Positions 2,611 to 24,117 of a stretch of 45,192 bases of DNA are shown in pieces. The translations under genes and the position numbers were made by a program. This stretch comes from a virus: positions 1-45,192 of the IMG/VR virus record IMGVR_UViG_3300044946_000069; one strand, written 5' to 3'. The notes under the pieces are model-generated. The model saw only the letters and a list, made by a program, of their open reading frames with translations, was not told the origin of the DNA and ran no database searches. The number at the start of each line of letters is the position of its first letter. The stretch's first letter is position 1.

Positions 2611-2781
2611 ATGACGCACCCATGGGAAAAACTACCCGTATAGTTAACTTCCGCAACTGAGCCGGACTACAACGAAATACCCGACTTCCTACGGCGCGAA
2701 CTGCCGAAGCCCGTCAATCTCGAAGGTAATCCTCAAGACTCAGACCCAATTGCGCTTCGGCTTTGGGGACCCAAGACTTAG
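2611..2781 (+). pseudogene. small gene interrupted by in-frame amber codon
   Basis: ATG at 2611 encodes MTHPWEKLPV and then meets TAG at 2641-2643. Without that stop the same frame continues for 45 more protein-like codons (TSATEPDYNEIPDFLRREL and onward) to a second TAG at 2779-2781. The downstream part has normal codon use and an acidic, Pro-containing composition, so this looks like one gene of 56 codons carrying an amber. It could be a recent mutation, a sequencing error, or stop-codon readthrough. TAG ends other genes here (18238, 34126), so wholesale recoding is unlikely. The 3' end runs antisense to the gene at 2714-3022. Confidence 0.45.
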
Positions 2782-3022
2782 TTTCATTTCTCAACGCCGC
2801 ACGTACAACGCCGGTAACGCCGCTATCGCGCGCACGCTCGAATAACACTATCTCGCCTTCAGCAAGCGCCTTATCGATTTCGGGGTCGTCTTTTACCGTA
2901 CTCCAATCAATACCGGCAGCTCGCGACGCCAATTCATGCGGCACGCCTTCACGTAGCCGTTCGATCATGATTTCACGCGGCGTTGTTGCTTTGGGTTTTT
3001 GTGGGTAGAGCCACGGGAACAT
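2714..3022 (-). CDS. HTH-like protein beside internal virion gene
   Basis: The start is ATG at 3022 (MFPWLYPQKPKA), giving 102 residues. The middle (HELASRAAGIDWSTVKDDPEIDKALAEGE) reads like a helix-turn-helix followed by an amphipathic helix, the layout seen at the N-terminus of many small terminase subunits. No small terminase is otherwise visible next to the terminase large gene at 39400-40935, so this is a candidate. Its start MFPWLYP also resembles the terminase large start MNYPWALAP. It follows the 1316-residue internal protein by about 10 bp in the same direction. Small-terminase identity is only an inference. Confidence 0.5.
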   Translation of the reverse strand: MFPWLYPQKPKATTPREIMIERLREGVPHELASRAAGIDWSTVKDDPEIDKALAEGEIVLFERARDSGVTGVVRAALRNETKSWVPKAEAQLGLSLEDYLRD

Positions 3023-3034
3023 CAAATATACCGC

Positions 3035-6000
3035 CTACGGCGAAGCCCCTGCACCTTGTACAGCGCCGCGCTGCGCTATCGTACCGGCAACATTGCGCGC
3101 CGTACGAGCGCCGCTGTCCGGCATCGCGCCTAGAATATCAGAGAACTTCGCAGGACTGCCGGCTGCACGCTCTTGCATCCAACGATTAAGGCTACCCAGC
3201 AATTTAACGCCGCTGTACAGCTTTCCTAAGTATGGAATGCGTTCGGCCGCCACAAGATTGAGAACGCCTTTCTCGTAGTTAGGCGCAGCCCCGCGCATAG
3301 CGTTCCAGGCCGCTATCGCAGTCGGGTCGTTCGCAGCAAACGCCTTGAAACGCTGATCGGCGTCGCGGCCTTCCTGACCTTTCAGCCGCGCCGCTTGCGC
3401 GAGATCGCCGCCGTTCGTTGCGTCCATCAAGCGACGGTAGCGCACGTCAAGCGCGCTAAGCCGTTGCATGACTTGCGGCCCTTGTGTCGGACCAAACACG
3501 TAATTGGCGGCCTTTGCTTGCTGCGTGCGCACAGTATCGGCCAGCGTACGCATGTCATTTGCGGTTTGCGTTTTGCCGGTTGCGGTGCTGCCAAGCGCGT
3601 CGCGTTCAGCTTGCAACAGATTTGAACGCGCATCCTTCAATTGATTCCACTTTTCTTGCCAATTCGCGGCCGGCGCCGTGATCGCCATTTCCGTACGTTC
3701 CGCAAGTTCGGCATGCGCGGCGGAAACCTGCTTATTTACAACAGCGGCCATAGGACCGTCAGGCAATTTTGGCGTGGCTTTCACGGCGCCGACGCCTTTA
3801 TCGGCGACTTCCTGTTCTAATTGCTGGTAGCCAGCGCCAATGCTCCGTTGTTCCTGCGCAACGGGCTTATTCACTTGCGCTTCCTGCAATGGCACGCCTT
3901 CAGAACTGACTTTGTGTGCGTACGCAGCTTCTTCCGGGTCCAGGCCAGCGTCTTTCAGCGTCGTTTCAGCTTTGTCCTTCGCAGCCTGCGCAGCATCGTA
4001 CTTCGGGTTTGGCCCTGAAGCCGCGCCACCAACGCCCGGCAATTTTGGCGGCTCAGTTTCCAGGATTTTAGAGCTGTCCGCGTACGTCTTTGCGGCGTCC
4101 TGTACGGCTGCTTTTGCATCGGGTGCAAACAAACTGAAAACCTTATGCCCAGCCATGCCGAGCGCGCGGCCGAACGCTTCGCCGCCGAGGGCAGCGGCGC
4201 CGCCGCGCAGCCCCGCATCGACCACATCGGGGGCGTTACCCCCTTCCGCCGCTGTTTTGCCAGCCTCGACACCAGCACTGCCAATGACGCGGCCCGCAAC
4301 AGCCGCCAGCGGACGCGCAGCCGATGCAACACCAAGCACGCCGCCGAGTGCCGCTTGTTCGGTCGTTTCGATTGCGTCTTGCGGCTTGCCTTTGATGTAG
4401 TTTTTCAAAACTGTGCCGGCACCGCCGCCAGCCGCACCGCCGGCAATGGCGCCGACGGGACCGCCAAGCACGCCGACTCCAGCGCCTATTGTTGAAAGAG
4501 CTGCAGGCGCCGCATCGGCAAGCATATCAACGCCACCACGCCGCCCCTGCTCTTGCTGTGCCGGCGTCAGATGGTTCCACGCCATCGTGGCGGGATCGTC
4601 CATCGGATTGCCGGCAGTTGGTTCGGCGCCCGGCAGCGGAGCGGGACGACGCGGCACTGTGTCGGAAACGTCTTGTGCGATTTTTGCTTGATACCGACCA
4701 AGTACCGTCGCGACAGTCGGGCGCCCTTTGAAAAATGCCGGGTCTGCGGCCGCATCGCCGATAACCGTACGCGCATCGGCGTTAGGATTTGCCTTCAGCA
4801 ACGAAGCCGCGGCACCCGCACCAAGATTATGCGCAATGTACAGATTTGTGTCGTTGACAGGCACGCCGGCAGTTTGCAGCGAAGTTGCGTTTGTATTCGT
4901 CAACTTTTCAAGCGCCGCCGTCTGCTGTTCCGGCGTGGCATCGGCCGCACGCGCTGGAGCGCCCGGCGGCTTGTTCGCATCCCAAGTCGTTTTGATGAAC
5001 TGATACGCGCCGCCAGCGCTTGTACTGTCGGCTTTCGCGGTCCACGGATTGCGCTCGTTACCGGTTTCAATGCGCTGCAGCGAAGCGACGTACGCAGGCG
5101 ACGCGCCCGGCGGTAACGCCATGTTGACTTGCTGGCCGGCGACCGTAACGGGCTGCTGCTGTGGCGCTGAAGGCTGAGAGGTGGCCGCCCCGTTGCTGTT
5201 TGGCGGCTGCGGGGCGGGCGGGGCTGAGGGGCTACCACCCGGAGGTGTAGCATCCCCATTCTGCCTCGCCTGCTGTACGGGTGTCAAGAGGGGCTGCGCG
5301 CCCGGAAGCTGATTTGCCGTCTGCGAACCGGGCGGCAGGCTGATAGCACCCGCGCCAGGACGCTGCGCACCGAGCTGCAGCACGCCATTGCCGGCGCCGA
5401 TCGGCTGGAAGTACGGACGCATGCGCTCGACTTGCGCCTGACGGCCTTGCTCAATAGCACTGTTGATAACACCGTTCGCTTCGTCATTTCCGAGCCCTAG
5501 CGCCGACGCATCAAGCCCCAGCGCGCCCGCGCGCCTCGCAATTCCGGTTGCGCGATCGCCGATGCTGCTGTCGTTCCACTGTTTCAGGCCGTCCATGACT
5601 TCGCGAATTTGTTGCTGCGAAAGCCCGGTCAAGTACGGGCGCGCTTCCTCACCTGTTAAAGTATTAAGCGCACCCGCGTAGCCGCTTTGGATCTTGTCAA
5701 AAAGGCCCTGAATAACGCCGCGCTTAGACGTTTCGATGTTCAGCAAGCCGACGTTGGCACTGGCCCGGCCGCCGCGCAGCATCGACGCCAAGCCTTCGGC
5801 GACGCCTTGTTGTACATTCGGATTGGTGTTGATTTTGTCCGGCGGCAGCGGGTTTCCGTTCGCGTCCTTCGTGGCGATGTCGTAAATGCGATTGAAGCCC
5901 CGATATTTTTCAATATCCGCTGGGGGCGCGGCGGTCTTAAATTCGTCGCCAAGCTCCTTGCGCTGGTCCGCTGTCGCGCCGCCGCCGGTCTTACCGTAGT

Positions 6001-6985
6001 CGTCCACAGTCGCAATACCATTTGCAAGCTGGCCGCGCGTGCCCGATGCACCGTTGCGCGACCACGGCCCTAGATTCAGCTCGTCGCCGTACACGGTTTT
6101 CAGCGCGCCTTTGTACGTATCCTGTTCCTTTGTTTCCATCGGAACGTACGTGTTGCGCTGCTCCAACGCTTGCCCCTGCGAATTGATGGCGGCACGCGCG
6201 TTGCGGAGCGCCAACGCTTCAGCCGGCGCCGCGGCCTTGAAAGCGTCAAACGTCGGCGGCAATTTCAGGCCGGCACCTTCGAGATCAGTCAACGTACCAT
6301 CTTGTCGAAGTTGTTTGATCTTAGCTTGGTACTGCCCCTCGTTTTCCATGCCCGACAGGCTGTCGAAAGCGGTCTGCGCGTTGTCCAGATGGCCGCCAAT
6401 CGCTGCGTAGAACTGCGGCGCTATGGCAGCGGCCTTATCGGGTGCGATAGCCGATATGCCCTGGAACGCACGTACGTCGCCTTTGAGCGCCTTCGCGGAC
6501 GCGACTTCGAGCCGATCATCCGCGGTCGCTTGGTCCGGCGCTTCATCCGGCGTCAACCCCAACGATTGCGCCTGCGCACGGCCGGCTTGTACGGCGGCTT
6601 TCTGTTGCTGAATTTTCGTGAGCTGTTCCGTCATCTTCGGCACGGCGTCGCGCGCCGCTTGCACGCCTTCGGGATTGAAGAAAGCCGCGAGCGGATTCGT
6701 CGCAATCTGCCCGGCGCGCGTAATGCGCTGCTGTAACAGACTCGCCGACTGATCGAGCGCCGACGTTTGAGGATCTACGTTGTAATTCGGGAGCAGGCTT
6801 AACGAACTGCCAAACGTCGGCGCGCTGCTCTGCGGCTGCGGTACGGGCGCCTGCGTACTAGGGCCGATATTCGGCATCACAGGCGTGTTCGGCAGAGCAC
6901 CGCTGCCGTCACCGCTATACGCTGGCGCACCCGATTGAGTATCGAGGCCGCCGCCGAATATACTGGGGCCGCTAACGTCAGACAT
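3035..6985 (-). CDS. giant internal virion / ejection protein with lytic transglycosylase domain
   Basis: A 1316-residue protein, the largest in the window. The N-terminal third is Gln/Ala-rich and helical, as in podovirus ejection proteins. Around residues 625-775 there is an SLT-like lysozyme domain: SLQRIETGNERNPW supplies the likely catalytic Glu, then SAGGAYQFIKTTWDA and YIAHNLGAGAAASLL. Then comes a Gly/Ala-rich hydrophobic stretch (STIGAGVGVLGGPVGAIAGG) that could insert in a membrane, and a long coiled-coil-like C-terminus. Such proteins are packed in the head and ejected with DNA to open the cell wall and form a conduit. ATG at 6985 is preceded by a CCGCAA/TTGCGG hairpin at 6996-7012. 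GTAC is very frequent in this gene. Confidence 0.85.
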   Translation of the reverse strand: MSDVSGPSIFGGGLDTQSGAPAYSGDGSGALPNTPVMPNIGPSTQAPVPQPQSSAPTFGSSLSLLPNYNVDPQTSALDQSASLLQQRITRAGQIATNPLAAFFNPEGVQAARDAVPKMTEQLTKIQQQKAAVQAGRAQAQSLGLTPDEAPDQATADDRLEVASAKALKGDVRAFQGISAIAPDKAAAIAPQFYAAIGGHLDNAQTAFDSLSGMENEGQYQAKIKQLRQDGTLTDLEGAGLKLPPTFDAFKAAAPAEALALRNARAAINSQGQALEQRNTYVPMETKEQDTYKGALKTVYGDELNLGPWSRNGASGTRGQLANGIATVDDYGKTGGGATADQRKELGDEFKTAAPPADIEKYRGFNRIYDIATKDANGNPLPPDKINTNPNVQQGVAEGLASMLRGGRASANVGLLNIETSKRGVIQGLFDKIQSGYAGALNTLTGEEARPYLTGLSQQQIREVMDGLKQWNDSSIGDRATGIARRAGALGLDASALGLGNDEANGVINSAIEQGRQAQVERMRPYFQPIGAGNGVLQLGAQRPGAGAISLPPGSQTANQLPGAQPLLTPVQQARQNGDATPPGGSPSAPPAPQPPNSNGAATSQPSAPQQQPVTVAGQQVNMALPPGASPAYVASLQRIETGNERNPWTAKADSTSAGGAYQFIKTTWDANKPPGAPARAADATPEQQTAALEKLTNTNATSLQTAGVPVNDTNLYIAHNLGAGAAASLLKANPNADARTVIGDAAADPAFFKGRPTVATVLGRYQAKIAQDVSDTVPRRPAPLPGAEPTAGNPMDDPATMAWNHLTPAQQEQGRRGGVDMLADAAPAALSTIGAGVGVLGGPVGAIAGGAAGGGAGTVLKNYIKGKPQDAIETTEQAALGGVLGVASAARPLAAVAGRVIGSAGVEAGKTAAEGGNAPDVVDAGLRGGAAALGGEAFGRALGMAGHKVFSLFAPDAKAAVQDAAKTYADSSKILETEPPKLPGVGGAASGPNPKYDAAQAAKDKAETTLKDAGLDPEEAAYAHKVSSEGVPLQEAQVNKPVAQEQRSIGAGYQQLEQEVADKGVGAVKATPKLPDGPMAAVVNKQVSAAHAELAERTEMAITAPAANWQEKWNQLKDARSNLLQAERDALGSTATGKTQTANDMRTLADTVRTQQAKAANYVFGPTQGPQVMQRLSALDVRYRRLMDATNGGDLAQAARLKGQEGRDADQRFKAFAANDPTAIAAWNAMRGAAPNYEKGVLNLVAAERIPYLGKLYSGVKLLGSLNRWMQERAAGSPAKFSDILGAMPDSGARTARNVAGTIAQRGAVQGAGASP

Positions 6986-10014: not shown

Positions 10015-10350
10015 ATGATTGAGCAAAAGTCGTTTGGAGCCTTCATAAAAGAGCGTTTCGGTCCAAATTGGGTGTATGCTGCGCGCTGTACAGACAACAT
10101 CCGAGCGCGCTACAACAAACCGGACTGTCCCGTAGTTGTGATTACGCCCAAGCAGCAAAAGCAACTGAAAGCCGATTACGAGCGCGAATGGGGCCGCGAG
10201 TACGACCCGCAATACTGGGCGATGCTCTCTACTCTCCGAGCAATCCACGCGCACGCTGCTAACACACGCCAAAACCCTGTCAACGCCTATTTTATTGAAG
10301 CACTCGCTGCCGCTGCAATCAAAATCGCAACAGAGGGTTTGGCACCATGA
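10015..10350 (+). CDS. hypothetical early protein (111 aa)
   Basis: I chose ATG 10015 because it follows the shared ribosome leader CCGCTGGAGAG. The product starts MIEQKSFGAFIKERFG and has a basic central part (ITPKQQKQLKADYEREWGRE). The segment coding for ANTRQNPVNAYF is the second copy of the 35-bp repeat that forms the promoter at 9161-9195, so promoter sequence has become coding or the reverse. Last bases overlap the next ATG. Function unknown. Confidence 0.65.
   Translation: MIEQKSFGAFIKERFGPNWVYAARCTDNIRARYNKPDCPVVVITPKQQKQLKADYEREWGREYDPQYWAMLSTLRAIHAHAANTRQNPVNAYFIEALAAAAIKIATEGLAP
10259..10293. repeat. 35-bp direct repeat, copy 2 (coding copy)
   Basis: Exact copy of 9161-9195 embedded in the gene at 10015-10350. 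On the minus strand it carries TTGACA plus the G/T-rich spacer, so it may direct antisense transcription. Confidence 0.95.
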
Positions 10351-10949
10351 CAAACACGGATAAGCGCGCTGGCTGGGATCGGATACCCGGCACCTGCGAA
10401 ATCAGCAACGGCAAGGGCAAGGTATACCGCGGCATGGTGCGCTTCGAGCGGCCATGCGCGACCTGTGGCGAGCGTTTCGGTATCCACGTCACGCAATCGA
10501 CGGCGGATGGCGAAGCGCACAACAGCGGCTTCGGGCTGCGAAATTGCGAAAAGCACCGCATGAAGATGGTCCCGGCCGGCATCGGTGTATCGGTCGAGGC
10601 GGCCGAAAAACTGCGTACGGCCAACGTCACCATGAAAGAGGAATTGACGGGCTTATACGCACGCAATGCCGCACTGCACGCAGAGAACGAAATCTTAAAA
10701 TCCAGGCTGGCGGTTTACGAGCTGCCATCCATGAATGTGCCGCGCGTCTCGGCTTTCACGCAGGAACCACTGACGGATGCAAGGGCCGCGGCAACCGAGG
10801 AACTAGGCCGGAAGTGGCTGGAAAAGAACCCACAGGCCGCTATCCTGACGCGCGACACTGCTTTAAAGCCGCTGGATGCCGCAGGCCAAGAACTGTTGCA
10901 AAAATGGCTCACTAAAAATAATGTGCAAAAAATGCCTTGGGAGTGTTGA
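10347..10949 (+). CDS. zinc-finger/coiled-coil early protein ending in MPWEC
   Basis: 200 residues. The N-terminal part has Cys residues (GTCEIS, RPCATCGERF, LRNCEKH) that could form a zinc knuckle. The middle is a leucine/alanine coiled coil (GLYARNAALHAENEILKSRL). The C-terminal third holds two similar blocks, TEELGRKWLEKNPQAA and GQELLQKWLTKNNVQ, and ends MPWEC. That ending is one case of the [LMFY]-P-W terminal motif seen in several unrelated proteins here. The stop lies in the TTGACA of the next promoter. Function unknown. Confidence 0.65.
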   Translation: MTNTDKRAGWDRIPGTCEISNGKGKVYRGMVRFERPCATCGERFGIHVTQSTADGEAHNSGFGLRNCEKHRMKMVPAGIGVSVEAAEKLRTANVTMKEELTGLYARNAALHAENEILKSRLAVYELPSMNVPRVSAFTQEPLTDARAAATEELGRKWLEKNPQAAILTRDTALKPLDAAGQELLQKWLTKNNVQKMPWEC

Positions 10950-11979: not shown

Positions 11980-14052
11980 ATGCTTGCCCCCACTAGCACA
12001 ACTGCGTACAACATACAATCCTTTTGGGATGCCGCGATTGCGCGCGGTCTTTTCCCCCTCGCCATAGCCCGAAATTCCAAGGCGCCGATTGGGTCGGGCT
12101 GGGATATTTGGACTTCACCAATCGCACACCCTGGCGCTGGCAGCGTAGGGCTGCGCTGTGGCGACGGCGGCCTGACGGCTTTCGATTGCGACCACACGGA
12201 CCCGCAAATATCGCAACGCCTCTTAGCCGCTTTCCGTTCCGTCCTAGGCCCGAACATTCCCGTACGCTGGGGTCGCGAACCAAAATTCTTAATTCCGTTT
12301 TATCTCATTGATGCACCCGTACAGGGCCGCACATTCAGCTTTCCAGACGGCAACAAACTGCAATTAATGGGCGGCCAATTTATCGCCTTTGGTCCACATA
12401 AGGACACCGGCCAAGACTATCGCTGGGAGAACTGGGCGAGCGACTGGCCACGCCTGACAACCGAACAACTCCAAAAAGTTCTTTCCGAAGTCCCGCTGCG
12501 CGCCGGTACGTCATTGCGCTTTGCAGCCGAGCATGAAACGGCCAGCGCCGATGAGCTGAAATACGCAACACCGCAGACGTACGATGAATGGCAAGCCGGC
12601 CACGACGCCGCCCAGCGCTATCTCGGAATGCTAAAGCACGAACTGTTAGGCAAGACTGAAGGCCGCGGATCTACGATCTTCGCCATTGTCGGCGTGCTGA
12701 AATTCGCCGAGCAGCATGGCATGTGTACGCGGCGCGAGATTGAAGATGCCATAACTGGCGCCGGGCACAGCCTGGACGAAGGCATTGGCGGCCGTACGCT
12801 GGGCGAGGAAATAACGCGGCAAGATCAGTTGCCGGTATTGCGCGGCAATCTGATTATGCAAGCGGTTATGTCGCGCCGTACAATGATACAGGGCTTGCAC
12901 GACGCGCAGATAGCGCCGACGCTCGCCAAGCGTTCGGGCTTTGAAATATCCTTGGAGGACGACAGTGCAGAGCTACCGTGGCTACTATATCAACGGGTAC
13001 TATGTGGTGAGGTTCACTTTTTCACCGGGCACAGCGGGGCCGGTAAGTCCGCGCTTGTTAGTGACTTGGCTTTTCAATTTCTTCGGGGGCGGCCGTGGCT
13101 CGACGCCGATAACGAGCGCACAAATGGTCATGTACTGTGGATTGCCGCTGAAGATGACTACGGCACAGAACGACGCGTAAGGCACCTGCTATGCCAGGAA
13201 CCAAATGCGACTGAGCTGGCGGGGCGATTCCACATAATACGTGGCGTCAACGAGCCGATGGCATTCGAGCAACAATGCGTGGCGCAGTTTCAAGCCATGG
13301 CTGCGATGGACAAACGCATTGATATGATCGTGCTCGATACGTGGGGCGCGTCTGGTTTGTGTTTCGCTGACAACGATACCGAAGCCGTGTTGAAAGCCAT
13401 GTTCATTTTGAAAAGCTTGGCGCGGCGTACGGGCGCCGCTGTACTCGTCACTGATCATTTGCCGTTAGGCAACGAAGATGCTTGGCAGAAAGGTAACGGC
13501 GCCAAGACAGGCAACAGCGGCTTTGTGTATCGCGTGACCAGTGGTCGCAACGACTTTGTGTCGGTTGATTGCGGCAAGGCGCGCGGCGCCCCGAAGGCCA
13601 AGAGCTACACAGGTAAGATCGTCTCGGAGAACTACGGCAAAGACGCGAAAGGCCGTACAACCACCGTCAACGTGTTCAAGCGTACGTCCGAAGTGATAAA
13701 AGAGAACAAAGAGCAGTCCGCCGTGCTTAGGCTGGCCGCAATGCTGCCGGGTGTTACCGCTGCCGGCATGGACGCGTTACGCGCCGGCAGCATTGTCAAA
13801 TTCGATAGCGTGGCAGCCGAAATAGGCCATGCCGTCAAAGGCGAAGTGCCCGGTTACGTCGTCAGCAAGGACGCCGCCAAGAAGATGTTCGAGGATGGCA
13901 TAAAGGGCTTGCTTGAAAGTGGACATTTTAGGCCGCTGTACGGTTATCCGTTCTTGACGATCTTTGCGCCGAGTGGTAGTGTACGGCAGGAATTGGTGAT
14001 ACCGTTCGCAATCGACATACCGAAGGAGAGTTTCCCGTGGCAGACACCGTAG
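11980..14052 (+). CDS. primase-polymerase / RepA-like helicase
   Basis: A 690-residue two-domain replication protein. Residues about 10-150 look like a bifunctional DNA primase-polymerase domain, with the acidic pair AFDCDHTD as likely catalytic metal ligands and VRWGREPKFL downstream. Residues about 340-530 form a RecA-type ATPase: Walker A GHSGAGKSAL, a WIAAEDDYG segment, Walker B MIVLDTWG and VLVTDH. It would unwind the fork and start synthesis, feeding the family-A polymerase at 21117. It ends IDIPKESFPWQTP, another FPW tail. ATG 11980 has a poor ribosome site, so the start is the best available rather than certain. The stop lies inside the next gene. Confidence 0.85.
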   Translation: MLAPTSTTAYNIQSFWDAAIARGLFPLAIARNSKAPIGSGWDIWTSPIAHPGAGSVGLRCGDGGLTAFDCDHTDPQISQRLLAAFRSVLGPNIPVRWGREPKFLIPFYLIDAPVQGRTFSFPDGNKLQLMGGQFIAFGPHKDTGQDYRWENWASDWPRLTTEQLQKVLSEVPLRAGTSLRFAAEHETASADELKYATPQTYDEWQAGHDAAQRYLGMLKHELLGKTEGRGSTIFAIVGVLKFAEQHGMCTRREIEDAITGAGHSLDEGIGGRTLGEEITRQDQLPVLRGNLIMQAVMSRRTMIQGLHDAQIAPTLAKRSGFEISLEDDSAELPWLLYQRVLCGEVHFFTGHSGAGKSALVSDLAFQFLRGRPWLDADNERTNGHVLWIAAEDDYGTERRVRHLLCQEPNATELAGRFHIIRGVNEPMAFEQQCVAQFQAMAAMDKRIDMIVLDTWGASGLCFADNDTEAVLKAMFILKSLARRTGAAVLVTDHLPLGNEDAWQKGNGAKTGNSGFVYRVTSGRNDFVSVDCGKARGAPKAKSYTGKIVSENYGKDAKGRTTTVNVFKRTSEVIKENKEQSAVLRLAAMLPGVTAAGMDALRAGSIVKFDSVAAEIGHAVKGEVPGYVVSKDAAKKMFEDGIKGLLESGHFRPLYGYPFLTIFAPSGSVRQELVIPFAIDIPKESFPWQTP

Positions 14053-14315
14053 CAGATGAGGCCGTGGCAGATGAAAAAATTAGCCATTGGTTGGGGCGTG
14101 AAAGATGGGCGCCAGAGGACATTAAACGTGGCTTGCGCGTACGTCTCGGCGCGCGTGGCACGGCAGTTTTGTTTCAATCAAGTGACGGCCCTGACGATAA
14201 CGCAGATTTGTGGTATTTGGTAAGCGAGGAACTCTGCATAGTATGCCCTCGTTTTGGGACCCGCGAAGAAATATCTGTCTATCTCAACAAGCACAAATTT
14301 TCTCTGGCGGGATGA
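14037..14315 (+). CDS. hypothetical acidic early protein (92 aa)
   Basis: GTG 14037 lies within the last codons of the prim-pol gene. The 92-residue product starts MADTVADEAVADEKISHW and has a beta-rich body (LRVRLGARGTAVLFQSSD, DLWYLVSEELCIVCPRFG). It is probably cotranslated with the helicase. Not recognised. Confidence 0.6.
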   Translation: MADTVADEAVADEKISHWLGRERWAPEDIKRGLRVRLGARGTAVLFQSSDGPDDNADLWYLVSEELCIVCPRFGTREEISVYLNKHKFSLAG

Positions 14316-14512
14316 TGGCCCTAGACGCAAACGGCGAGTGGGATGGTGTCTGCGCGTGCGGCAATAAAGAGGCTGACGGGATTCGATGTATCCTTGGGGC
14401 GACGCACAAACCGTACAAGCCGCACCCTATGCCGTGGGAGACGCAATCTATTCCGGCCGCGAGCGCGGAACCGTCGTTACCGTGGACGCAGACAAAACTA
14501 CCATGGGAGTAG
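14312..14512 (+). CDS. Cys-containing protein with three PW motifs
   Basis: ATGATG at 14312 overlaps the previous stop. 66 residues: an N-terminal C-A-C...C cluster (GVCACGNKEADGIRC), then HKPYKPHPMPWETQ, then EPSLPWTQTKLPWE at the extreme C-terminus. So it carries MPWE, LPWT and LPWE. The last 127 nt overlap the start of the next gene in another frame, and both frames look protein-like. The repeated PW units suggest a multivalent partner-binding peptide. Confidence 0.55.
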   Translation: MMALDANGEWDGVCACGNKEADGIRCILGATHKPYKPHPMPWETQSIPAASAEPSLPWTQTKLPWE

Positions 14513-14595
14513 TTTGGTCGGACAGCGACGACGGCAAGCCTATAACGTACCCGATGGACGCGGGCTACTTGAGCAGGGAATTTCCATGGCTATAA
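14386..14595 (+). CDS. SH3-like protein starting YPW and ending FPWL
   Basis: 69 residues. The N-terminus is MYPWGDAQ and the C-terminus SREFPWL. The centre (YAVGDAIYSGRERGTVVTVDADKTTMGVVW...) is a small beta-barrel pattern. The first 127 nt are shared with the preceding gene in a different frame. An internal later start is possible, but it would lose the PW start, and no strong ribosome site favours it. Confidence 0.5.
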   Translation: MYPWGDAQTVQAAPYAVGDAIYSGRERGTVVTVDADKTTMGVVWSDSDDGKPITYPMDAGYLSREFPWL

Positions 14596-14774
14596 GACAG
14601 ACGCATACGTACGCAGAGCTAGAGCTTTCAAAAGTCGCATACGATGAAATAGCGGCGAAACTCCGCGACGCTGGTTACGACCATGCTTTTATGGACGACG
14701 GCGCGATTGATATGCACGGCATCGGCGTGACGTGTGAACGCACAGAAACAGAAAAGAAATTTTTACCAAAATGA
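14586..14774 (+). CDS. hypothetical small protein (62 aa)
   Basis: ATG 14586 overlaps the previous stop. 62 residues with ELELSKVAYDEIAAKLRDAGYDHAF and a HGIGVTCE stretch, a single alpha/beta domain in style. The stop overlaps the next start. Unrecognised. Confidence 0.55.
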   Translation: MAIRQTHTYAELELSKVAYDEIAAKLRDAGYDHAFMDDGAIDMHGIGVTCERTETEKKFLPK

Positions 14775-15097
14775 CCACCCCTGACGACATATTCCCATGG
14801 GACCCGCCGCAACGATCGGTGGAAGATACCATCGAACTGATGCGAAACGACTTCGCATACGCTGTTGCGAACACTTGTATTGTGGTACACTCCAATAATC
14901 CGGCGTTCGCTTTCATCGCCAATACGCAGCGGGGGCAGCTCGTACCGCGCGGTGAGGTTAAGTTTTCGGACGGCACGACAATCGAATTACAGGACATAGG
15001 CATGTGTCAGCCAAATGTGCCGCACATGAGCGTACAACAAATCATGTCGCGGGTGTGGAAGCTGGTAGGCGAATTGAAGTTGGAGATTGTGAAATGA
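14771..15097 (+). CDS. hypothetical protein with IFPWDPP N-terminus
   Basis: 108 residues. The N-terminus (MTTPDDIFPWDPPQRS) displays the PW motif, here at the start rather than the end. The rest has NDFAYAVANTCIVVHSNN and a beta-rich stretch GQLVPRGEVKFSDGTTIEL. Coupled to both neighbours. Function unknown. Confidence 0.6.
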   Translation: MTTPDDIFPWDPPQRSVEDTIELMRNDFAYAVANTCIVVHSNNPAFAFIANTQRGQLVPRGEVKFSDGTTIELQDIGMCQPNVPHMSVQQIMSRVWKLVGELKLEIVK

Positions 15098-16404: not shown

Positions 16405-18039
16405 ATGCACGCCGGCTTCCCCATAACGCCGCCCCCGCTGTTCGTACCGCGCCGGCATCAAACCGAAGGCGTACAAACGCTCATTAATCACGACGGCCGT
16501 TTTAGTGTCGCCGAAATTTCAGTTGCGGCGGGCAAATCCGATATGCTGGCAATGTTGGCTGCACATTATATGCAATTCGGACGCGTGATTGTTGTTGCAC
16601 ACAATAAAGAGCTGGTCGTACAAAATACCGAAGCGTGCAAGCGGCACGGCATAAACCCCGGCGTCTGCTCCGCGTCCATCAGCGTCAACGCCTTTGCCAG
16701 AGTCACCGTTGGAACTATCGGAACAATCGTTAGTAGATTGCACCTATTCCGTGACGTGGTGGCGATACTTGTGGATGAAGTTCACAGGACGCCACCCGCT
16801 AAGTCGTCTCAATACCGGCGGCTGTTCGATAAACTCGCACAAACCAAAGTTCACGGATTGACTGCAACGCCGTTCCGATCAGACGGCACTGGCGACCTTA
16901 ACCGTACGTTCGGCCCAGTCGTTTTCAAATATTCGTTCCTTGACGCCTTGCGTGACGGCTACGTTAAGCCACTGGTCCCAGTGGATGCCGGCGAAGATGA
17001 AACAATCGAAGTCGAAGGACTAAAAACCGTAGCCGGCGACTTCGACATGGACGAAATGGCGCCGCGAGCAATCAAGCTCTCGCCAAGTCACGCGAAAACA
17101 ATTCTGGAGGTTATGCAAAAGTACGGGCGCCGCCGCGTGCTAGTATTCTGTTGCAATATTGAGCACGTCGATAAGATGGAAACAGAGCTGCACAAGCTCA
17201 ATGCCTCAGTTGTCGGTGTGCATTCGCACTCTATCACAGGCAAACGTGACAAAGCCGTACAGGCGTTCAAGGCCGGACACGCAGAGATCCTCGTCTCATG
17301 CAATATGTTCACGACGGGTTTCAACGTGGTAGACATTGACTACATGGCGTTTTGCCGCGCTACCAAATCCGCCGTGCTGTACGCTCAAAGTTTAGGACGC
17401 GGCGCTCGTATAACGCCGTACGCCGCTAACTGCCTTGTGTCGGACTTCGGCGGCAACATTCAGCGCCATGGCACGCTTGACGCTGTGATGGCGGCTCCGG
17501 GTCGCTTGCTGGAATGTGACGTGTGCGCTGCCGAGTGGGAGACGTGGGAAAACGGCAAAACCTGCCCCAAGTGTCAAACGTTGCACCGTAGCGCGCCGAA
17601 ATGTAAAAGCTGCGGCGAGGCATTCGACCCGCATTTCCACGGCATGCGCTGCCCGCACTGTCATCAACAGCAATCCGAAATAAAGACGTGCGCAGCCTGC
17701 GAAGAAACGTACGCGGCATTTTTGCACCCGCTATGCCCGTTCTGCGGTTTCGACAACACCGTGACGATGGCAGCCGGCAAAGATCTGAAAATGCGCGGCG
17801 GTGCGAGCGAGGCCGTCAACATTCGCAAGCTAGTCGAAGCCGAGCCCTGGCAGGCGGTAGTAAGCCCGCCGGTTAAGAATCCTTCGGGCGGCTGGACGTT
17901 GACAACTAAGTTCACTACCTGTACATGGCCGTACGAGGTCCTGCCCGAGCCGCATTCGGTTTACTTGAAGCGTTCTCCTAATGGCCGCTATGTCGCGTCC
18001 GGGATTTACGATAAGCGGGGACAGATACATCAAAGGTGA
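16405..18039 (+). CDS. SF2 DEAD/DEAH-type helicase with zinc ribbons
   Basis: 544 residues. The N-terminal RecA lobe has a degenerate Walker A (VAAGKSDM), VVAHNKEL, the DEVH box (ILVDEVHRTPP) and the LTATPFR motif. The second lobe has VLVFCCN, FTTGFNV and motif VI SLGRGAR. After residue about 365 come four or five CxxC pairs (CDVC, CPKC, CKSC, CPHC, CAAC, CPFC), a multi-ribbon zinc region. The family moves along duplex DNA or branched structures, and here it likely serves replication or recombination. It lies midway in the early operon. Confidence 0.85.
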   Translation: MHAGFPITPPPLFVPRRHQTEGVQTLINHDGRFSVAEISVAAGKSDMLAMLAAHYMQFGRVIVVAHNKELVVQNTEACKRHGINPGVCSASISVNAFARVTVGTIGTIVSRLHLFRDVVAILVDEVHRTPPAKSSQYRRLFDKLAQTKVHGLTATPFRSDGTGDLNRTFGPVVFKYSFLDALRDGYVKPLVPVDAGEDETIEVEGLKTVAGDFDMDEMAPRAIKLSPSHAKTILEVMQKYGRRRVLVFCCNIEHVDKMETELHKLNASVVGVHSHSITGKRDKAVQAFKAGHAEILVSCNMFTTGFNVVDIDYMAFCRATKSAVLYAQSLGRGARITPYAANCLVSDFGGNIQRHGTLDAVMAAPGRLLECDVCAAEWETWENGKTCPKCQTLHRSAPKCKSCGEAFDPHFHGMRCPHCHQQQSEIKTCAACEETYAAFLHPLCPFCGFDNTVTMAAGKDLKMRGGASEAVNIRKLVEAEPWQAVVSPPVKNPSGGWTLTTKFTTCTWPYEVLPEPHSVYLKRSPNGRYVASGIYDKRGQIHQR

Positions 18040-19030: not shown

Positions 19031-20011
19031 ATGGCTCACGCAATCTTCGCACCATCATCCGCCGCAACGTGGTTGGAATGCTCTTTCAGCGCGCGCAACA
19101 GCGTACCGGAAGCGCCGAAGCCATTGAAAACGCAATTAGCAGCGGACGAAGGCACGCGCGGTCATGAACTGTTAGCTGCCGCCGTCGCGGAGAATGCTTT
19201 TCCAGATGACAGCGACACCCAAGCCGAAGCCGTCGCCTTGGGTGTTGATTTTGTACGGCAGCTAGAACCCGGCGACCTGTACACAGAATTAACGGTAGAA
19301 CTAGCGCACGAATGCGGCGGTACGGCTGATTTATTCAATGACCACCCGCACATCGCCACCATCATGGATTACAAGTTCGGCGAGTGGGACGTTGACGCGT
19401 ACCACAACAAACAAATGTTGACGTACGCCGCTGCATTACTTAACGAGTGCGACGCCGAGTGGTGGCGCCTTGTCATCTTCCAACCGAACGGCTTGGACGA
19501 AACGCCGTTTAAACAATGGGTCGCACACCGCAGCGAAGTGATCGCGCACCGCGACCGCGTGTTACGGCAAATTGCCGATCGAAGTGCCCCGCGCCCCGGT
19601 CCGTGGTGCCGTTGGTGCAACGCGTTCCAGCAATGCCCCGCCATGTCGATCGATGCAGGCTTTGTCATGGGCGCCATGTCGCGCGCTCCCGAAAGCCTGA
19701 CCAGCGAGGAACTTGTGCGGCTGTTGCGAATCATCCGCGCACTTGACGACGTAAAGGCCGTTTATGATGACGCCTTGGTTACAAAGCTGAAGCTAGGTTA
19801 CGCGACGCCTGGAGCCGTGCTGAAGCCGGGGCGTTCTTTCAGGCAGTGGAATGACCAAGAGCAGGCGGCTAAGGTGCTGTACGAACAGTTCGGCCCTCGC
19901 GGGATTAAGCCCTTATCCCCGGCGCAGGCTGAAAAACTGGGGCCGGCCGGTAAGCAATACGCGGCAGTAGGAGCACACAAGCCTGAAGCACCACTAAAGG
20001 CGTTTTATTAA
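19031..20011 (+). CDS. DUF2800-type RecB-like nuclease
   Basis: 326 residues. The N-terminus (APSSAATWLECSFSARN) and GTRGHELLAAA match the DUF2800/Cas4-like family. The PD-(D/E)XK core is visible as GTADLF, ATIMDYKFG and HNKQMLTYAAAL. A Cys cluster (WCRWCNAFQQC) near residue 200 could hold an iron-sulphur cluster. After that a 100-residue C-terminal domain follows, which is duplicated alone in the gene at 8504-8914. It would act as a DNA exonuclease in replication or recombination beside the putative ssDNA-binding protein. Confidence 0.85.
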   Translation: MAHAIFAPSSAATWLECSFSARNSVPEAPKPLKTQLAADEGTRGHELLAAAVAENAFPDDSDTQAEAVALGVDFVRQLEPGDLYTELTVELAHECGGTADLFNDHPHIATIMDYKFGEWDVDAYHNKQMLTYAAALLNECDAEWWRLVIFQPNGLDETPFKQWVAHRSEVIAHRDRVLRQIADRSAPRPGPWCRWCNAFQQCPAMSIDAGFVMGAMSRAPESLTSEELVRLLRIIRALDDVKAVYDDALVTKLKLGYATPGAVLKPGRSFRQWNDQEQAAKVLYEQFGPRGIKPLSPAQAEKLGPAGKQYAAVGAHKPEAPLKAFY

Positions 20012-20012
20012 A

Positions 20013-20231
20013 ATGGCCGAAGCCTTCGATCCGATAAAAGCTATCCGTGAAGAAATTGCCGGACTTCATGGCGTACAAGAGGCGATCAAGCGGCGCGAGC
20101 GCGCCGAAGAAGCAAACATGGCCGAAGCGGAAACTGAACTAAACGCGTTACGCAAGATCGGCGGCTACCTAAGAATTGAAATTGAACGGAAGCGCGACGC
20201 GCTGCAAAAATTGATCGACTCTGGCACTTGA
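20013..20231 (+). CDS. coiled-coil small protein (72 aa)
   Basis: 72 residues, nearly all one charged amphipathic helix (IKAIREEIAGLHGVQEAIKR... AETELNALRKIGGYLRIEI). It begins two bases after the nuclease stop. The TGA of this gene is inside the TTGACC of the next promoter. Possible accessory subunit of the nuclease or putative ssDNA-binding protein. Confidence 0.6.
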   Translation: MAEAFDPIKAIREEIAGLHGVQEAIKRRERAEEANMAEAETELNALRKIGGYLRIEIERKRDALQKLIDSGT

Positions 20232-20256
20232 CCACCACCGTCCGTACGCCTATAAT
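20228..20256 (+). promoter_or_regulatory. strong sigma70 promoter for putative SSB gene
   Basis: TTGACC at 20228-20233, 17 nt, perfect TATAAT at 20251-20256. The stop codon of the upstream gene is within the -35. ATG 20301 lies 45 nt further with GGAG in front. Confidence 0.75.
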
Positions 20257-20300
20257 TTGCAACGTGACTATTCGACAAATGGCAAAATGGAGAACTGAAA

Positions 20301-21077
20301 ATGGCACAGCGACAATATGAACCGTTCACGCTGTTCAACGTCCGCATTGTTGACATGCGGCACCTGTGGACCCCGGCCTTGGAATACAAAGGGCAGCCGT
20401 CAAAAAAGCCCAACTATTTCGCGGGTTTCATCGCCCAAAAAACACAGGCGCAATGGCACCACGAACCGGCGTTGGCGGGGTTGGTTCAGGCGCTCGGGAA
20501 AATCTACCAATCCAACCCGCAAATTCAGGACTGGCGTATTGTAGACGGCGACACGCCGAGTCCGGAAGGCAAATCTTCGGACTTCGCCAAAGGTCATTGG
20601 CTGTTCAATGCTTCCAGCGGCAACCCGATCAATGTCGAACTGGCGCAAGCCGGCGGGGCGCTGGTAAAGTTGCCGAACAAAGTCGGCGTGAAGTCCGGCG
20701 ACTATTGCATGATCGGCGGCGCCGTAGCGGTCAGTCAGCAAAACAATCGAGCGGCAAAAATCTATCTGAACTCGGTTGTGTTTTCGTCGCCGGGCGAAGA
20801 AATCGTATTCGCCAATTCAGTGAGCGGTGCCGAGCTGATGCGAATGGCGGAACAGCAGGGCTTGCGTCCGGCGGGCTTCAGTCCATCGCCTGGAGGCTTT
20901 GTACCGCAACAGCCCTTTGGTCAGCAACCACAGGGTTTTACGTCGCAGGTAGGGTTTGCCCCGACACCAAGCGGGCCTGCCTTACCGGCTGCACAGGGCC
21001 AGAATGGCGCGGGTTTCGGTGGGAATGCGGCGACGCCATCCCCTTTTAGCCCGGCAAACCCGTTCGCACCGCGCTAA
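20301..21077 (+). CDS. putative ssDNA-binding protein (DUF2815-like)
   Basis: 258 residues. The N-terminal 180 residues form a beta-rich, OB-fold-like body (FTLFNVRIVDMRHLW, AGFIAQKTQAQW, NPINVELAQAGGALVKLPNK, IYLNSVVFS). The C-terminus is a disordered Pro/Gln/Gly/Phe tail ending SPANPFAPR. Its order next to the DUF2800 nuclease and the polymerase is that of phage single-strand-binding DUF2815 genes. It has its own strong promoter and a terminator immediately after, which would allow high-level expression, as expected for a stoichiometric DNA-coating protein. Family assignment is by context and shape. Confidence 0.65.
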   Translation: MAQRQYEPFTLFNVRIVDMRHLWTPALEYKGQPSKKPNYFAGFIAQKTQAQWHHEPALAGLVQALGKIYQSNPQIQDWRIVDGDTPSPEGKSSDFAKGHWLFNASSGNPINVELAQAGGALVKLPNKVGVKSGDYCMIGGAVAVSQQNNRAAKIYLNSVVFSSPGEEIVFANSVSGAELMRMAEQQGLRPAGFSPSPGGFVPQQPFGQQPQGFTSQVGFAPTPSGPALPAAQGQNGAGFGGNAATPSPFSPANPFAPR

Positions 21078-21088
21078 ACGACAAGATT

Positions 21089-21114
21089 GCGGGGGCCTCG
21101 CGCCCCCGCTTTTT
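21089..21114 (+). terminator. intrinsic terminator after putative SSB gene
   Basis: Stem GCGGGGGC/GCCCCCGC, 5-nt loop, followed by TTTTT at 21110-21114. The next ATG is at 21117, so the terminator occupies the whole leader of the polymerase gene. Confidence 0.85.
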
Positions 21115-21116
21115 CC

Positions 21117-23054
21117 ATGCCGCACCCTGACGACTTATTGGCCGATTTCGAGACGCGGAGTCGCTGCGATCTTAAAAAGGCCGGCGCGCGTCGCTACGCC
21201 GCCGATCCTTCGACGGGCATCACATCGGTCGTGTGGCAATTCCGCGGCATGCGGAAACGCGCCTGCCCCGTACACCCACACTTAGGCACGCATACGCTCG
21301 CGGACCTGTACGCCGACGTACGACAATGCCGCCGCTTCGTCGCGCACCACGCAAATTTTGACGTAAGCATTTTACGCGCGGTCAATCCGTTCCTAGACCT
21401 GCCGCTGTCAAAGATTGACTGCACAATGGCGCGAGCGCAATCGCTTGCGCTCCCCGGCGGACTAGATCAGGTTTGCAAGACGCTCGGTATTCGGGGCAAA
21501 GACCCGCGTGGGCGCGAACTTGTTATGAAAACCTGCAGGCCGCAACGCGATGACACATTCAACGAAGATGTACAGACGTTCCGCGAATTGCTCGAATACA
21601 ACGACGTTGACGTTGATTGCCTCATCGATTTGGATAGTCGGTTGCCGCCGCTCACGCCGGACGAACGTTTGATTTTTGAACGTACATGGCGAAAGAACGA
21701 AATCGGGCTGCCGATTGACGTACATTTAGCAACTGCTATCGCGATGCGCCGGCAGGAAATCGAACAAGAGAGCACCACAACGCTTATGGAGTTGACGCAA
21801 AATGCGGTAACGAAGCTGTCGCAGCGTCAGCGCATTATCGAGTGGTGTAACAGCGGCAACCGCGCGGCCGGGCTGAAAAGCACGCAAAAGCACATCGTTG
21901 CCGAAAAACTGACCGACGAAAACCTGCACCCTGACGTACGTATTGTTTTGGAGCTGCTACAGTCCGAAGGTGGTTCAGCCCCGCTCAAAGCGCAGGCATT
22001 GCTGGATCGTCACGTCAACGGCTTCTATAAGGACGCGACGCGATACTTCGGTGCGCGATCAGGTCGCGGCACTTCTGAAGGCGCCAACATGTTCAACATT
22101 GCCCGGCCGTCCGGTAAGTATGACGGAGAGAATGGACGGCCGACAATCGATAGTGTTATCCAAGGTCTTAAAATTGGGTTCAAATACAACAACATCGCAC
22201 TTACCGACTGCCTGCGGAGCTGCATTGTCGCACCGCCGGGCTGGATGGTTTGCGATAACGACCTATCAAATGCAGAGTATCGCATTGCCCTATGGATGGC
22301 TGGCGATGCCGAGCGATTAAACGTATTGGCAACTGGCGGTGATCCGTATATGTACAACGCGATTGCCATGGGGCGTTGCCCCCCAGGGTCTACCAAAAAG
22401 ACGCACCCACGCGAACGCCAGAGCTACAAATCCGTGACGCTGGGCGGTAATTATCAACTGGGCTGGAAAACGTACATGGCGCACCAACGCCGCGCCGGCA
22501 ACAACATGGATGAAATCAAAGCGCGTTCCGATATTGACGGCTACCGGCAGGCAAACCCGCCGCTAGTGTCGCTCTGGTACACGCTTGCCGACGCTTTCAC
22601 GTTTGCGATTTATGAGCAGCCGGGGCGTATCTTCCCTGCCGGCAAGGTCGCTTTTCAAAAGGACGCTCACGGCACCATTTGGATGCTGCTACCGTCCGGT
22701 CGCGCTGTACCGCACTACTCCGCGCACATTACGTACGGCGGCGAAATGGCATTTTTCAGAGCAAAATTTGGGGCGATGTTACGCCAAAAGGCGTTCGGCG
22801 GTTCGCTACTCGAAATTGCTTGTCAGTCCATGACGCGGGATCTTGTGACGGCGGCCGAGGCCGACATAGAGCGCGAGTTGCCCGATGTGGTTTTGATTCT
22901 GGACGTATACGATTCGATTCTGGCGCTGGCTCCGGCTGCCGTCGCGGAAATGCGAGCAGAACAGATGCGACAAATAATGAAAAGGGCGCGCGTGTGGACA
23001 AGCGGCTTGCCGTTGGATTGCGAAGGTTATGAAAGCGAGCGGATGCGGAAATAA
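21117..23054 (+). CDS. family A DNA polymerase with proofreading domain
   Basis: 645 residues from ATG 21117 (MPHPDDLLADFETRS). The 3'-5' exonuclease looks intact: ADFET (Exo I), AHHANFD (Exo II), YNDVDVD (Exo III). The polymerase domain has motif A DNDLSNAEYRIAL, motif B with RERQSYKSVTLGGNYQ, and motif C as LILDVYDSIL. Here the usual H-D-E is Y-D-S: the catalytic Asp is kept but its Glu partner is replaced. It copies the phage genome with the prim-pol/helicase and the putative ssDNA-binding protein. A strong terminator sits directly before the ATG and no ribosome site is visible, so expression may depend on readthrough or an alternative start. Confidence 0.9.
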   Translation: MPHPDDLLADFETRSRCDLKKAGARRYAADPSTGITSVVWQFRGMRKRACPVHPHLGTHTLADLYADVRQCRRFVAHHANFDVSILRAVNPFLDLPLSKIDCTMARAQSLALPGGLDQVCKTLGIRGKDPRGRELVMKTCRPQRDDTFNEDVQTFRELLEYNDVDVDCLIDLDSRLPPLTPDERLIFERTWRKNEIGLPIDVHLATAIAMRRQEIEQESTTTLMELTQNAVTKLSQRQRIIEWCNSGNRAAGLKSTQKHIVAEKLTDENLHPDVRIVLELLQSEGGSAPLKAQALLDRHVNGFYKDATRYFGARSGRGTSEGANMFNIARPSGKYDGENGRPTIDSVIQGLKIGFKYNNIALTDCLRSCIVAPPGWMVCDNDLSNAEYRIALWMAGDAERLNVLATGGDPYMYNAIAMGRCPPGSTKKTHPRERQSYKSVTLGGNYQLGWKTYMAHQRRAGNNMDEIKARSDIDGYRQANPPLVSLWYTLADAFTFAIYEQPGRIFPAGKVAFQKDAHGTIWMLLPSGRAVPHYSAHITYGGEMAFFRAKFGAMLRQKAFGGSLLEIACQSMTRDLVTAAEADIERELPDVVLILDVYDSILALAPAAVAEMRAEQMRQIMKRARVWTSGLPLDCEGYESERMRK

Positions 23055-23551
23055 TGCCCACGAACTACTTAAAACACAAATCTCACCGTAACCCCGCTGA
23101 AAATAAATTCCACGTTGGCAACGGCGGAGATGGTAAGCATTATTGGTTGACGCCGCCAGACCTGTACGCCCGACTCGATGCGGAGTTTCACTTTGACTTC
23201 GATCCTTGTCCTTATCCGCTTCCGCTGTGGTTTGATGGTCTGACATGCGAGTGGGGGAAATCGAACTACGTCAATCCGCCGTTCGGATCCATTATCCATG
23301 AAGGTAAAAAGAAAGGCCCGACCGCTTGGGTACGCAAAGCTATCGTTGAATGGCAAAAAGGTAAACGCGTAGTTCTGGTCTATCCAGTCGATAAATGGGT
23401 GCTAATGATCCTTTCGGCCATTGGTACTAAAGCCCGTAATTTAGGCGACATTCACTGGTGCTCAATCGAGGATGGATCTCCGGGCAAAGGAACCGGCCGC
23501 CACATCGCTGCGTTTATTTTAGAGCCGCCAAAAATGCCGTGGGAAACATGA
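23054..23551 (+). CDS. phage DNA N6-adenine methyltransferase (Dam-like)
   Basis: 165 residues. It carries the phage adenine methyltransferase layout: YWLTPPDLYARLDAEFHFDFDPCP, GLTCEWGKSNYVNPPFG and EWQKGKRVVLVYPVDKW, with NPPF as the catalytic motif of the DPPY type. It ends PPKMPWET, another PW tail. It overlaps the polymerase stop and the next gene's start. It likely methylates phage DNA to evade restriction or alter host control; target sequence unknown. Confidence 0.8.
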   Translation: MPTNYLKHKSHRNPAENKFHVGNGGDGKHYWLTPPDLYARLDAEFHFDFDPCPYPLPLWFDGLTCEWGKSNYVNPPFGSIIHEGKKKGPTAWVRKAIVEWQKGKRVVLVYPVDKWVLMILSAIGTKARNLGDIHWCSIEDGSPGKGTGRHIAAFILEPPKMPWET

Positions 23552-24117
23552 CGATCCTGCAAGCGGCCAACAACGGCGGCGAGCGGCGGGAGAATGATTT
23601 TTACCCCACGCCAGTTGAATGCACGCAAGCCTTAATTCCGACGCTTGCCGGCTGGCCCCGTACGGTATGGGAGCCGAGCTGTGGTGACGGAGGAATTGCA
23701 AGGACTCTTGAAAATTCTGGTTTCAAAGTAACTGGCACAGATTTAATCTATAGGGGGTACGGGGAGGGCGGTGTTGATTTCCTGAAAACTCCGTGGCGCC
23801 GCGCCGATGCTATTATCACTAATCCGCCGTTCGGCAGCCACGTATCGACATTTATAAAACACGCTTTGGATCTTGGTACGCCGTACATTGCTATGCTTTT
23901 GAACGTCAATCTGTGGCACGCCGCCAACCGTACAAAACTTTGGAATCGGCGTCTGCCGAAAGCAGTTTACGCACTGTGCTGGAGGCCAGATTTTACAGGT
24001 GCCGGGAGGCCGTATTTTAATTGCATATGGACAGTATGGAGTCCTAAAGCCGCGCCGTACACGCGATACGAACGACTTGCTAAACCGAAACAATTATTTC
24101 CTTGGGATGCACCATGA
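23548..24117 (+). CDS. second SAM-dependent methyltransferase with NPPFG
   Basis: 189 residues from ATG 23548 (MTILQAANNGGERREN). ENDFYPTP, WEPSCGDGGIARTLE (SAM-binding) and IITNPPFG (catalytic) define an adenine-type DNA methyltransferase. Two different NPPF enzymes in tandem point to two target sites or to a two-step modification. It ends PKQLFPWDAP. Overlaps both neighbours by ATGA. Confidence 0.8.
   Translation: MTILQAANNGGERRENDFYPTPVECTQALIPTLAGWPRTVWEPSCGDGGIARTLENSGFKVTGTDLIYRGYGEGGVDFLKTPWRRADAIITNPPFGSHVSTFIKHALDLGTPYIAMLLNVNLWHAANRTKLWNRRLPKAVYALCWRPDFTGAGRPYFNCIWTVWSPKAAPYTRYERLAKPKQLFPWDAP

Follow-up and report, generated by a model that had tools for sequence, protein, structure and literature searches.

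A Pro-Trp end tag common to otherwise unrelated DNA-acting proteins of related uncultured soil viruses

The window analysed here, the whole 45,192-nucleotide stretch of IMG/VR record IMGVR_UViG_3300044946_000069, comes from a group of uncultured soil viruses with bacterial hosts in which otherwise unrelated DNA-acting proteins have an end tag in common, and every terminal tag named in an earlier note on this DNA is present in the sequence. On the plus strand, a Cys-rich, coiled-coil protein with no assigned function (F16, 10347–10949) ends in KMPWEC (MPWEC at 10932–10946); the tag occurs in 20/21 orthologues, the ends of which vary (KMPWE, YPWQSS, MPWEGG, LPWE). The primase-helicase (11980–14052; Prim-Pol and AAA_25 by Pfam/PHROG) ends in SFPWQTP (FPWQTP at 14032–14049) and is tagged in 19 of 22 orthologues; P and W are the sole invariant residues within its last ~20, and the PW is kept even where the rest of the helicase is too divergent for BLAST to match. 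It is this protein to which the helicase tag of the earlier note belongs, the DEAD-box helicase being without one. A small Cys-containing protein (F42, 14312–14512) carries MPWE (14429–14440), LPWT (14477–14488) and a terminal LPWE (14498–14509), with a C-terminal tag in 7/11 orthologues, and in one relative (G006) an F42-type domain with its tags forms the end of a C5 methyltransferase. The F42 gene is overlapped, in a different frame, by that of another small protein (F37, 14386–14595), which is tagged at both ends, MYPW (MYPWGD) at 14386–14397 and FPWL (EFPWL) at 14581–14592, the C-terminal tag recurring in 13 and the N-terminal tag in 8 of 14 orthologues. Protein F13 (14771–15097, function unassigned) bears an N-terminal FPWD (IFPWDPP; 14792–14803), found in 19/22 orthologues with a shifting position.

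Further along the same strand, a Dam-type N6-adenine methyltransferase (23054–23551; phrog_111, weak PF05869) ends in KMPWET (MPWET at 23534–23548) and a phrog_799 DNA methyltransferase (23548–24117) in LFPWDAP (FPWDAP at 24097–24114); four of eight members of the latter family (F48) are tagged, the remaining members ending in FWEGK or YYEGK. On the minus strand, a protein of ~102 aa with no assigned function (F21, 2714–3022) starts with MFPW (MFPWLYP; 3011–3022), 13/19 orthologues being N-tagged, and the terminase large subunit (39400–40935; phrog_2) starts with MNYPW (MNYPWAL; 40921–40935). Residues P4 and W5 of the terminase are invariant (n=14), and PW is present in 60/60 readable N-termini at 60–96% identity, where the leader is otherwise free and the PW often doubled. 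The carriers are not confined to early proteins, as had been claimed: the terminase and the late-region ORF at 2714–3022 are tagged too.

The replication core between these genes is untagged. It includes, all on the plus strand, a DEAD-type helicase (16405–18039; phrog_16), conserved in groups A and B and in contig G036; a putative nuclease-like gene (F1, 19031–20011), assigned from position and family type and conserved in A, in 5/6 B contigs and in G036; a gp2.5-like ssDNA-binding protein (SSB; 20301–21077; phrog_7011), which ends in NPFAPR and whose orthologue in L013 has an OB-type domain that folds confidently; and a family A DNA polymerase (21117–23054; phrog_17, weak PF00476), the G036 orthologue of which is Klenow-like by fold. 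Tagged modification enzymes (Dam, N6_N4, phrog_799 and phrog_11619) adjoin polA, and the tag is borne by unlike methyltransferases that substitute for one another after polA. Homologues of such enzymes elsewhere are without it, namely Dam in ppBjS10J-1 and HTVC100P (70–71% identical), N6_N4 in BcepNY3 (56%) and a Mom-like protein in pMLP1 (55%).

Chance as the origin of the tags is rejected by their excess both in the window and by family. For the window, shuffling the proteins 5000 times gave on average 0.125 C-terminal [LMFY]PW motifs (maximum 2) against the six observed, and 0.26 N-terminal ones against four, a count that no shuffle reached. An unbiased scan of 26 related IMG/VR contigs gave PW as the top-enriched dipeptide at both protein ends. 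Counted by family across 32 contigs, 24 families are C-tagged (2.8 expected, maximum 8), 15 are N-tagged, a modest excess (6.9 expected, maximum 12), and 36 are tagged at either end (9.5 expected, maximum 16). Left out of the tag count was F15 (29397–30014, minus strand), whose conserved PPWAAVK.V end is of another type and lies within a conserved block. An ORF at 14056 starting with MRPW was taken as spurious, having been dropped by the gene caller.

The consensus, [MFY]-P-W-E, is the same at N- and C-termini, and interior PW pairs are without it: the residue after W is E in 38–44% of terminal tags vs 7% of interior PW. The Trp is invariant and mostly followed by 1–4 residues, and at –2 C-terminal tags most often have Lys (30%). 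With few invariant residues, a variable and disordered terminus and convergence on non-homologous proteins, the tag has the properties of a short linear motif (SLiM), and two naturally occurring read-through chains modelled with AlphaFold have low pLDDT at the tag. A cause at the level of DNA, with TGG-GAG serving as the next gene's ribosome-binding site or the tag being a copied DNA repeat, is hardly credible: TGGGAG does resemble the Shine–Dalgarno core and many genes abut, but the preference for Glu is shared by N-terminal tags, all four Pro codons occur, Glu codons are near background, and a close downstream start follows 34% of C-tagged genes vs 42% of others, so that codons, spacing and N-terminal copies together rule out either origin. 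The motif is far above chance, selected as a peptide, and kept while its surroundings, its length and its carriers change.

We consider it rather probable that [MFYL]-P-W-(E/D/Q), at whichever protein end it lies, works as a short linear motif for docking onto one shared, putative hub; the tags are probably a plug by which all carriers dock onto one putative partner. The earlier note had proposed a common docking tag for a single partner. Since the comparison with chance frequency and that with relatives' orthologues (primase-helicase 19/22, F16 20/21, terminase 60/60 readable N-termini) were both favourable, the docking part of that proposal is strongly supported, the partner itself being putative.

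A clamp-like or replication protein had been suggested as that partner. Short linear motifs that bind the bacterial sliding clamp are common to unlike proteins and lie at termini or in loops, for example at the C-termini of Pol II and Pol IV and in the disordered N-terminus of Hda, and their Gln is important, not essential (PMC11139829). The tags might bind the host clamp DnaN by a non-canonical motif, in the fashion of a PIP box on PCNA, and the clamp would then move its tagged cargo (helicase, modification enzymes, terminase) along the phage DNA. We regard this as rather unlikely, even though the hexameric form of the clamp motif, [L/M]x[F/L], resembles [M/L]PW and a DnaN partner would account for tags that track the host or the structural module and not PolA. 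The tag misses the clamp consensus Q-phi-x-[L/M]-(x)-[F/L] (PMC11139829): the matching Q is present in 5.6% of C-terminal and 0% of N-terminal tags vs 3.3% of interior PW, and a Phe-to-Trp change at the last position reportedly weakens binding (PMC11139829). The canonical beta-clamp motif is accordingly rejected, neither the position-1 Gln (three residues before [L/M]) nor the final Phe/Leu being a feature of the tag and the Trp being invariant. Nor did the one Pfam family searched, PF02768, detect a phage sliding clamp of DnaN type in six group members.

As systems for comparison, the tag resembles the beta-clamp motif and the PIP box in being a terminal or disordered SLiM that would recruit many enzymes to DNA; DNMT1, for instance, is recruited to PCNA through a PIP box. 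In phage T4, the clamp-binding tails of gp43, gp55 and gp33 are short, hydrophobic and acidic C-terminal motifs, interchangeable and on a flexible linker (PMC2988020), and the terminase gp17 also contacts gp55, itself a clamp binder (PMC9026906). Like the gp45-binding tails, the present tags are hydrophobic and acidic terminal motifs common to several unlike phage proteins; the motif differs, however, N-termini and modification enzymes are tagged as well, and the terminase bears a tag itself. The tag may, by analogy, work in the way of PIP boxes or of gp45-binding tails.

Considering where the tags are inherited, G036 is a chimaera that has PolA (69%), DEAD helicase (62%), nuclease and SSB in common with the tagged phages, together with a different structural module, and it is almost tag-free (two tags only); group B, with more distant core proteins and the same structural module, is tagged. 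Tag content therefore goes with structural module or host more closely than with the core, and G036, the sole contig with few tags and a foreign structural module, makes a partner in the host or in that module conceivable. That the partner is a structural protein (e.g. portal or capsid), the tag serving to load or dock its carriers on the procapsid, seems to us quite unlikely. The shared module of tag-rich contigs, even with a diverged core, and the tagged terminase agree with it, but one contig only separates core and structural module, capsid binding gives no obvious reason for tags on a replicative helicase or on methyltransferases, and in unrelated phages, with different capsids, KMPWE tails are found on SSBs and helicases.

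Those tails in unrelated phages occur on SSBs of the DUF669, Enc34/gp2.5 and DUF3127 types, on Toprim/DnaB primase-helicases and on exonucleases. KMPWE followed by TGA lies at an ORF end in 15/17 matches, against 3/13 for the control KFPWE followed by TGA; counts from the scan of the collection for KMPWE followed by TAA are lower bounds (at least the number matched). For linkage of the tag to PolA elsewhere among phages, PF00476 is too insensitive, failing to detect the polA gene of G004, and many of the records are fragmentary.

In other phages, moreover, one replication protein ends in DDDLPF or DDIPF while its neighbour ends in KMPWE. Together with the helicase tail, which alternates between IPFA, IPWA and MPWA upstream of the final tag, this favours mimicry of the bacterial SSB tip (DDDIPF), whereby the tags would bind the host's tip readers, a Glu side chain replacing the terminal carboxylate. 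The order hydrophobic-Pro-aromatic is indeed identical, yet we judge such mimicry very unlikely: the tag has Trp, not Phe, and then Glu, no acidic run precedes it (Lys at –2 being commonest), so that the acidic run, terminal Pro-Phe and free carboxylate of the tip are not found, it occurs at both protein ends, where N-terminal copies have no carboxylate, and packaging and methylation are not among the known functions of the SSB tip. The tails of T7 gp2.5 and gp4, which bind T7 polymerase, are similar in that a terminal aromatic tail is found on a helicase and, in other phages, on an SSB, and a family A polymerase and a gp2.5-like SSB are present here as in T7; unlike T7, the SSB of the window has no PW tag, none was seen in any SSB of the clade, and the polymerase is Klenow-like by fold.

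Returning to a docking motif for one shared hub, our best guess is a replisome or DNA-bound hub, because the KMPWE tails of unrelated phages sit on SSBs, primase-helicases and nucleases; the likeliest candidate would be an untagged member of the replication core (PolA, gp2.5-like SSB, DEAD helicase, nuclease or F6) or something on it. Contact between tag and hub would be transient and exchangeable, recruitment to replicating phage DNA might run from helicase to modification enzymes to packaging motor, and the small proteins with two or three tags could act as bridges or competitors. AlphaFold models of read-through chains (SSB with methyltransferase, PolA with methyltransferase) gave no placement of the tag (pLDDT ~31–38), the alignments being too shallow to be informative, and no useful gene fusion pointing to a hub was found. 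Among 84,980 species genomes of bacteria and archaea, none had a relative of PolA or terminase, and the virus is therefore not a prophage there.

We tentatively put forward, as a possibility somewhat short of probable, that the tag is an address code: a four-residue end tag would be fitted to each newly acquired modification enzyme and would deliver it to a single putative hub on replicating DNA, as it would the primase-helicase and, at a later stage, the packaging motor. Mini-proteins with two or three tags would regulate this traffic, and neither the hub nor the class of motif would have been described before. If so, the tag would be the phage equivalent of the PIP box, a single short peptide that links replication to protective DNA modification and to packaging, and would show a phage wiring new enzymes into its machinery by means of four added residues. 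A narrow search of the open literature, with subscription journals largely outside it, found no published description of the tag, which predicts a function for several orphan proteins and provides a bait peptide for the hub.

Finally, MTHPWEK at 2611, listed in the earlier note among the N-terminal tags, does carry the motif (HPWE), on what is a mere 10-codon ORF (MTHPWEKLPV followed by a stop; 2611–2643, plus strand), the start of a small gene that an in-frame stop breaks here. Translated through that stop, the gene matches orthologues in G040 and G026 that are open and tagged, with a further match in G001.

The short terminal tags that the earlier note listed ([LMFY]PW; consensus [MFY]-P-W-E) are all present in the window sequence, and against shuffled proteins they stand clearly above chance at both termini. 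With genes called by dicodon statistics, six window proteins carry the motif at the C-terminus (mean 0.125, maximum 2 in 5000 shuffles) and four at the N-terminus (0.26; four never reached in 5000 shuffles). The tag at 2611 lies in a 10-codon ORF; since its read-through matches a small gene that is open and tagged in two relatives (G040 and G026), we regard it as the start of a gene (2611-2757) that an in-frame stop interrupts after its tenth codon, and not as noise. Two short genes, 14312-14512 (+, family F42) and 14386-14595 (+, F37), share 127 bases that they read in different frames; each is tagged, the stretch thus encoding tags in two frames.

The window PolA matched 25 IMG/VR contigs (69-94% identity), and among the 1749 genes called on these 26 contigs, window included, PW was with no motif preset the top enriched dipeptide at C-termini (109 versus 15.9, redundant tails removed) and N-termini (65 versus 18.4). 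Since these counts still include homologues, counting was redone by family (32 contigs, 2239 genes, 767 families), giving 24 C-tagged families versus 2.8 (maximum 8) in 200 shuffles, 15 N-tagged versus 6.9 (maximum 12) and 36 with either tag versus 9.5 (maximum 16). Taken alone, the by-family N-terminal excess is modest, and the argument for the N-tags rests on conservation. Isolates with ~28% PolA (BcepNY3, XapPhi1) or ~30% terminase (Bas95, H6/1, ctHz2215) showed no tagging of comparable extent.

The motif recurs in the relatives' orthologues. PW lies near the start of all 60 terminases with a readable N-terminus (60-96% identity), after a hydrophobic residue in 57 and as PPW in three; P4 and W5 are invariant (n=14) in a leader otherwise variable in sequence and length, and PW is doubled in some (e.g. 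LPWEQPAPQPMPWE, YPWEQPPQSSYPWQQ). The primase-helicase is tagged in 19 of 22, P and W being the sole invariant residues of its last ~20. Helicases of a second subgroup (G061-G068), at ≤22% identity, still carry the tag (NPFAMRMPWQ, PFAFKMPWED, NPFAQQRMPWQ, FKFPWEV); given the AAA_25 domain in a similar helicase (L352), we consider them remote homologues rather than unrelated proteins. Scored on unique contexts, Glu follows Trp in 44% of C-terminal, 38% of N-terminal and 7% of interior cases, and Met/Phe/Tyr precedes Pro in about 72% at each terminus and rarely in the interior. A ribosome-binding site or repeat as the cause is ruled out by codon use (all Pro codons used, Glu codons near background) and by spacing, the gap to the following start being no shorter for tagged genes than for the rest; the tag is therefore a peptide signal.

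Further carriers are the Cys-rich coiled-coil F16 (10347..10949, +; 20 of 21), F37 (one tag per end), F42 (up to three), F13 (14771..15097, +), F21 (2714..3022, -), terminase and a DUF6551/DGQHR protein (F67). Tagged DNA-modification enzymes comprise Dam-type, phrog_799, several N6_N4, C5 and phrog_11619 enzymes, listed with F70 (small MTase-like) and F80, which resembles Mu Mom by eye alone, no profile supporting the name; their tagging is incomplete (F48, four of eight). Because homologues elsewhere end untagged, namely Dam in ppBjS10J-1 (71%) and HTVC100P (70%), the 56% identical BcepNY3 methylase (end RVRDYRS) and F80 in pMLP1, M8CR30-2 and Lily, these enzymes most likely gained the tag within this clade. 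Within the replication core, PolA, SSB and nuclease are tagged in none of the clade contigs, and the DEAD helicase has a single candidate tag, in the chimaeric relative G036.

Across IMG/VR, KMPWE immediately precedes TGA at 17 places, 15 at ORF ends; a parallel scan for KFPWE gave 13 matches, three at ORF ends. Among the TGA and TAA matches listed, non-clade carriers are mostly SSBs (DUF669, Enc34/gp2.5-like, DUF3127 types), Toprim/DnaB primase-helicases and exonucleases, with a baseplate protein, a 130-aa family and unknowns as minor carriers. In G010 a protein adjoining the helicase ends DDDLPF. L178 has KMPWE at the end of an acidic, SSB-like protein and EDDIPF at that of an ORF of helicase size. 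These carriers and tails favour a role in replication. In the large low-GC group L077-L195, Toprim/DnaB primase-helicases among the matches listed end EKMPWE; Pfam detected neither PolA nor PolB in the tested contigs of this group. In the low-GC contigs L085, L090, L136 and L160 a ~130-aa family of unknown function ends in a doubled tag, FPWEKMPWE. The window SSB (20301-21077) ends NPFAPR, helicase tails have NPFA/IPFA upstream of the tag, and the BcepNY3 and XapPhi1 primases terminate in SPFNTP and NPFGAIR, respectively; such ends, noted at the window SSB, L330:35537-38011 and L331:40969-43452, may form a second tail motif.

The earlier note proposed a common docking tag for one partner, such as a replication or clamp-like protein. 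Its docking part holds, the tag being conserved and above chance, and we consider a terminal docking SLiM well supported and very probable. A clamp-like partner gained no support: a PF02768 search of six clade members found no DnaN, and the tag does not fit the bacterial clamp-binding consensus. In G036, PolA, DEAD helicase, nuclease and SSB are retained but the structural module is not, and just two tags occur, so possessing this PolA or SSB is insufficient for tagging; as a single chimaera it cannot decide the partner. Tags and the structural module are both present in group B, whose core proteins are more distant, and in L352, L356 and L357 (PolA 62-66%). AlphaFold left the tag disordered in two natural read-through chains (shallow alignments). 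We suggest that a terminal docking SLiM combined with a DNA-bound replication hub is somewhat more likely than not, the hub being our best single guess. T4 gp45 tails and PIP boxes are functional parallels rather than established relatives of the tag.

PolA and terminase had no relatives among 84,980 bacterial and archaeal species genomes. PolA ORFs of 935-948 aa occur at G069 C1:27940-30741, G072 C1:11950-14766 and L349:9995-12802, the match in G069 and G072 being split near residue 580, as with an intein or other in-frame insertion. Two subgroups with only 60-65% identity in terminase and PolA show 88-90% in F18 (30324-31112, -), a protein without a PHROG family that may be the major capsid protein. 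At 43871-45152 (-) lie three tandem paralogues (F0; 78 copies, 21 contigs), and many relatives have two of these genes in fused form. Finally, IMGVR_UViG_3300043252_000011 (98,428 bases) and 3300037846_000034 (51,936 bases) share one gene layout around polA, possibly reflecting head-to-tail assembly.
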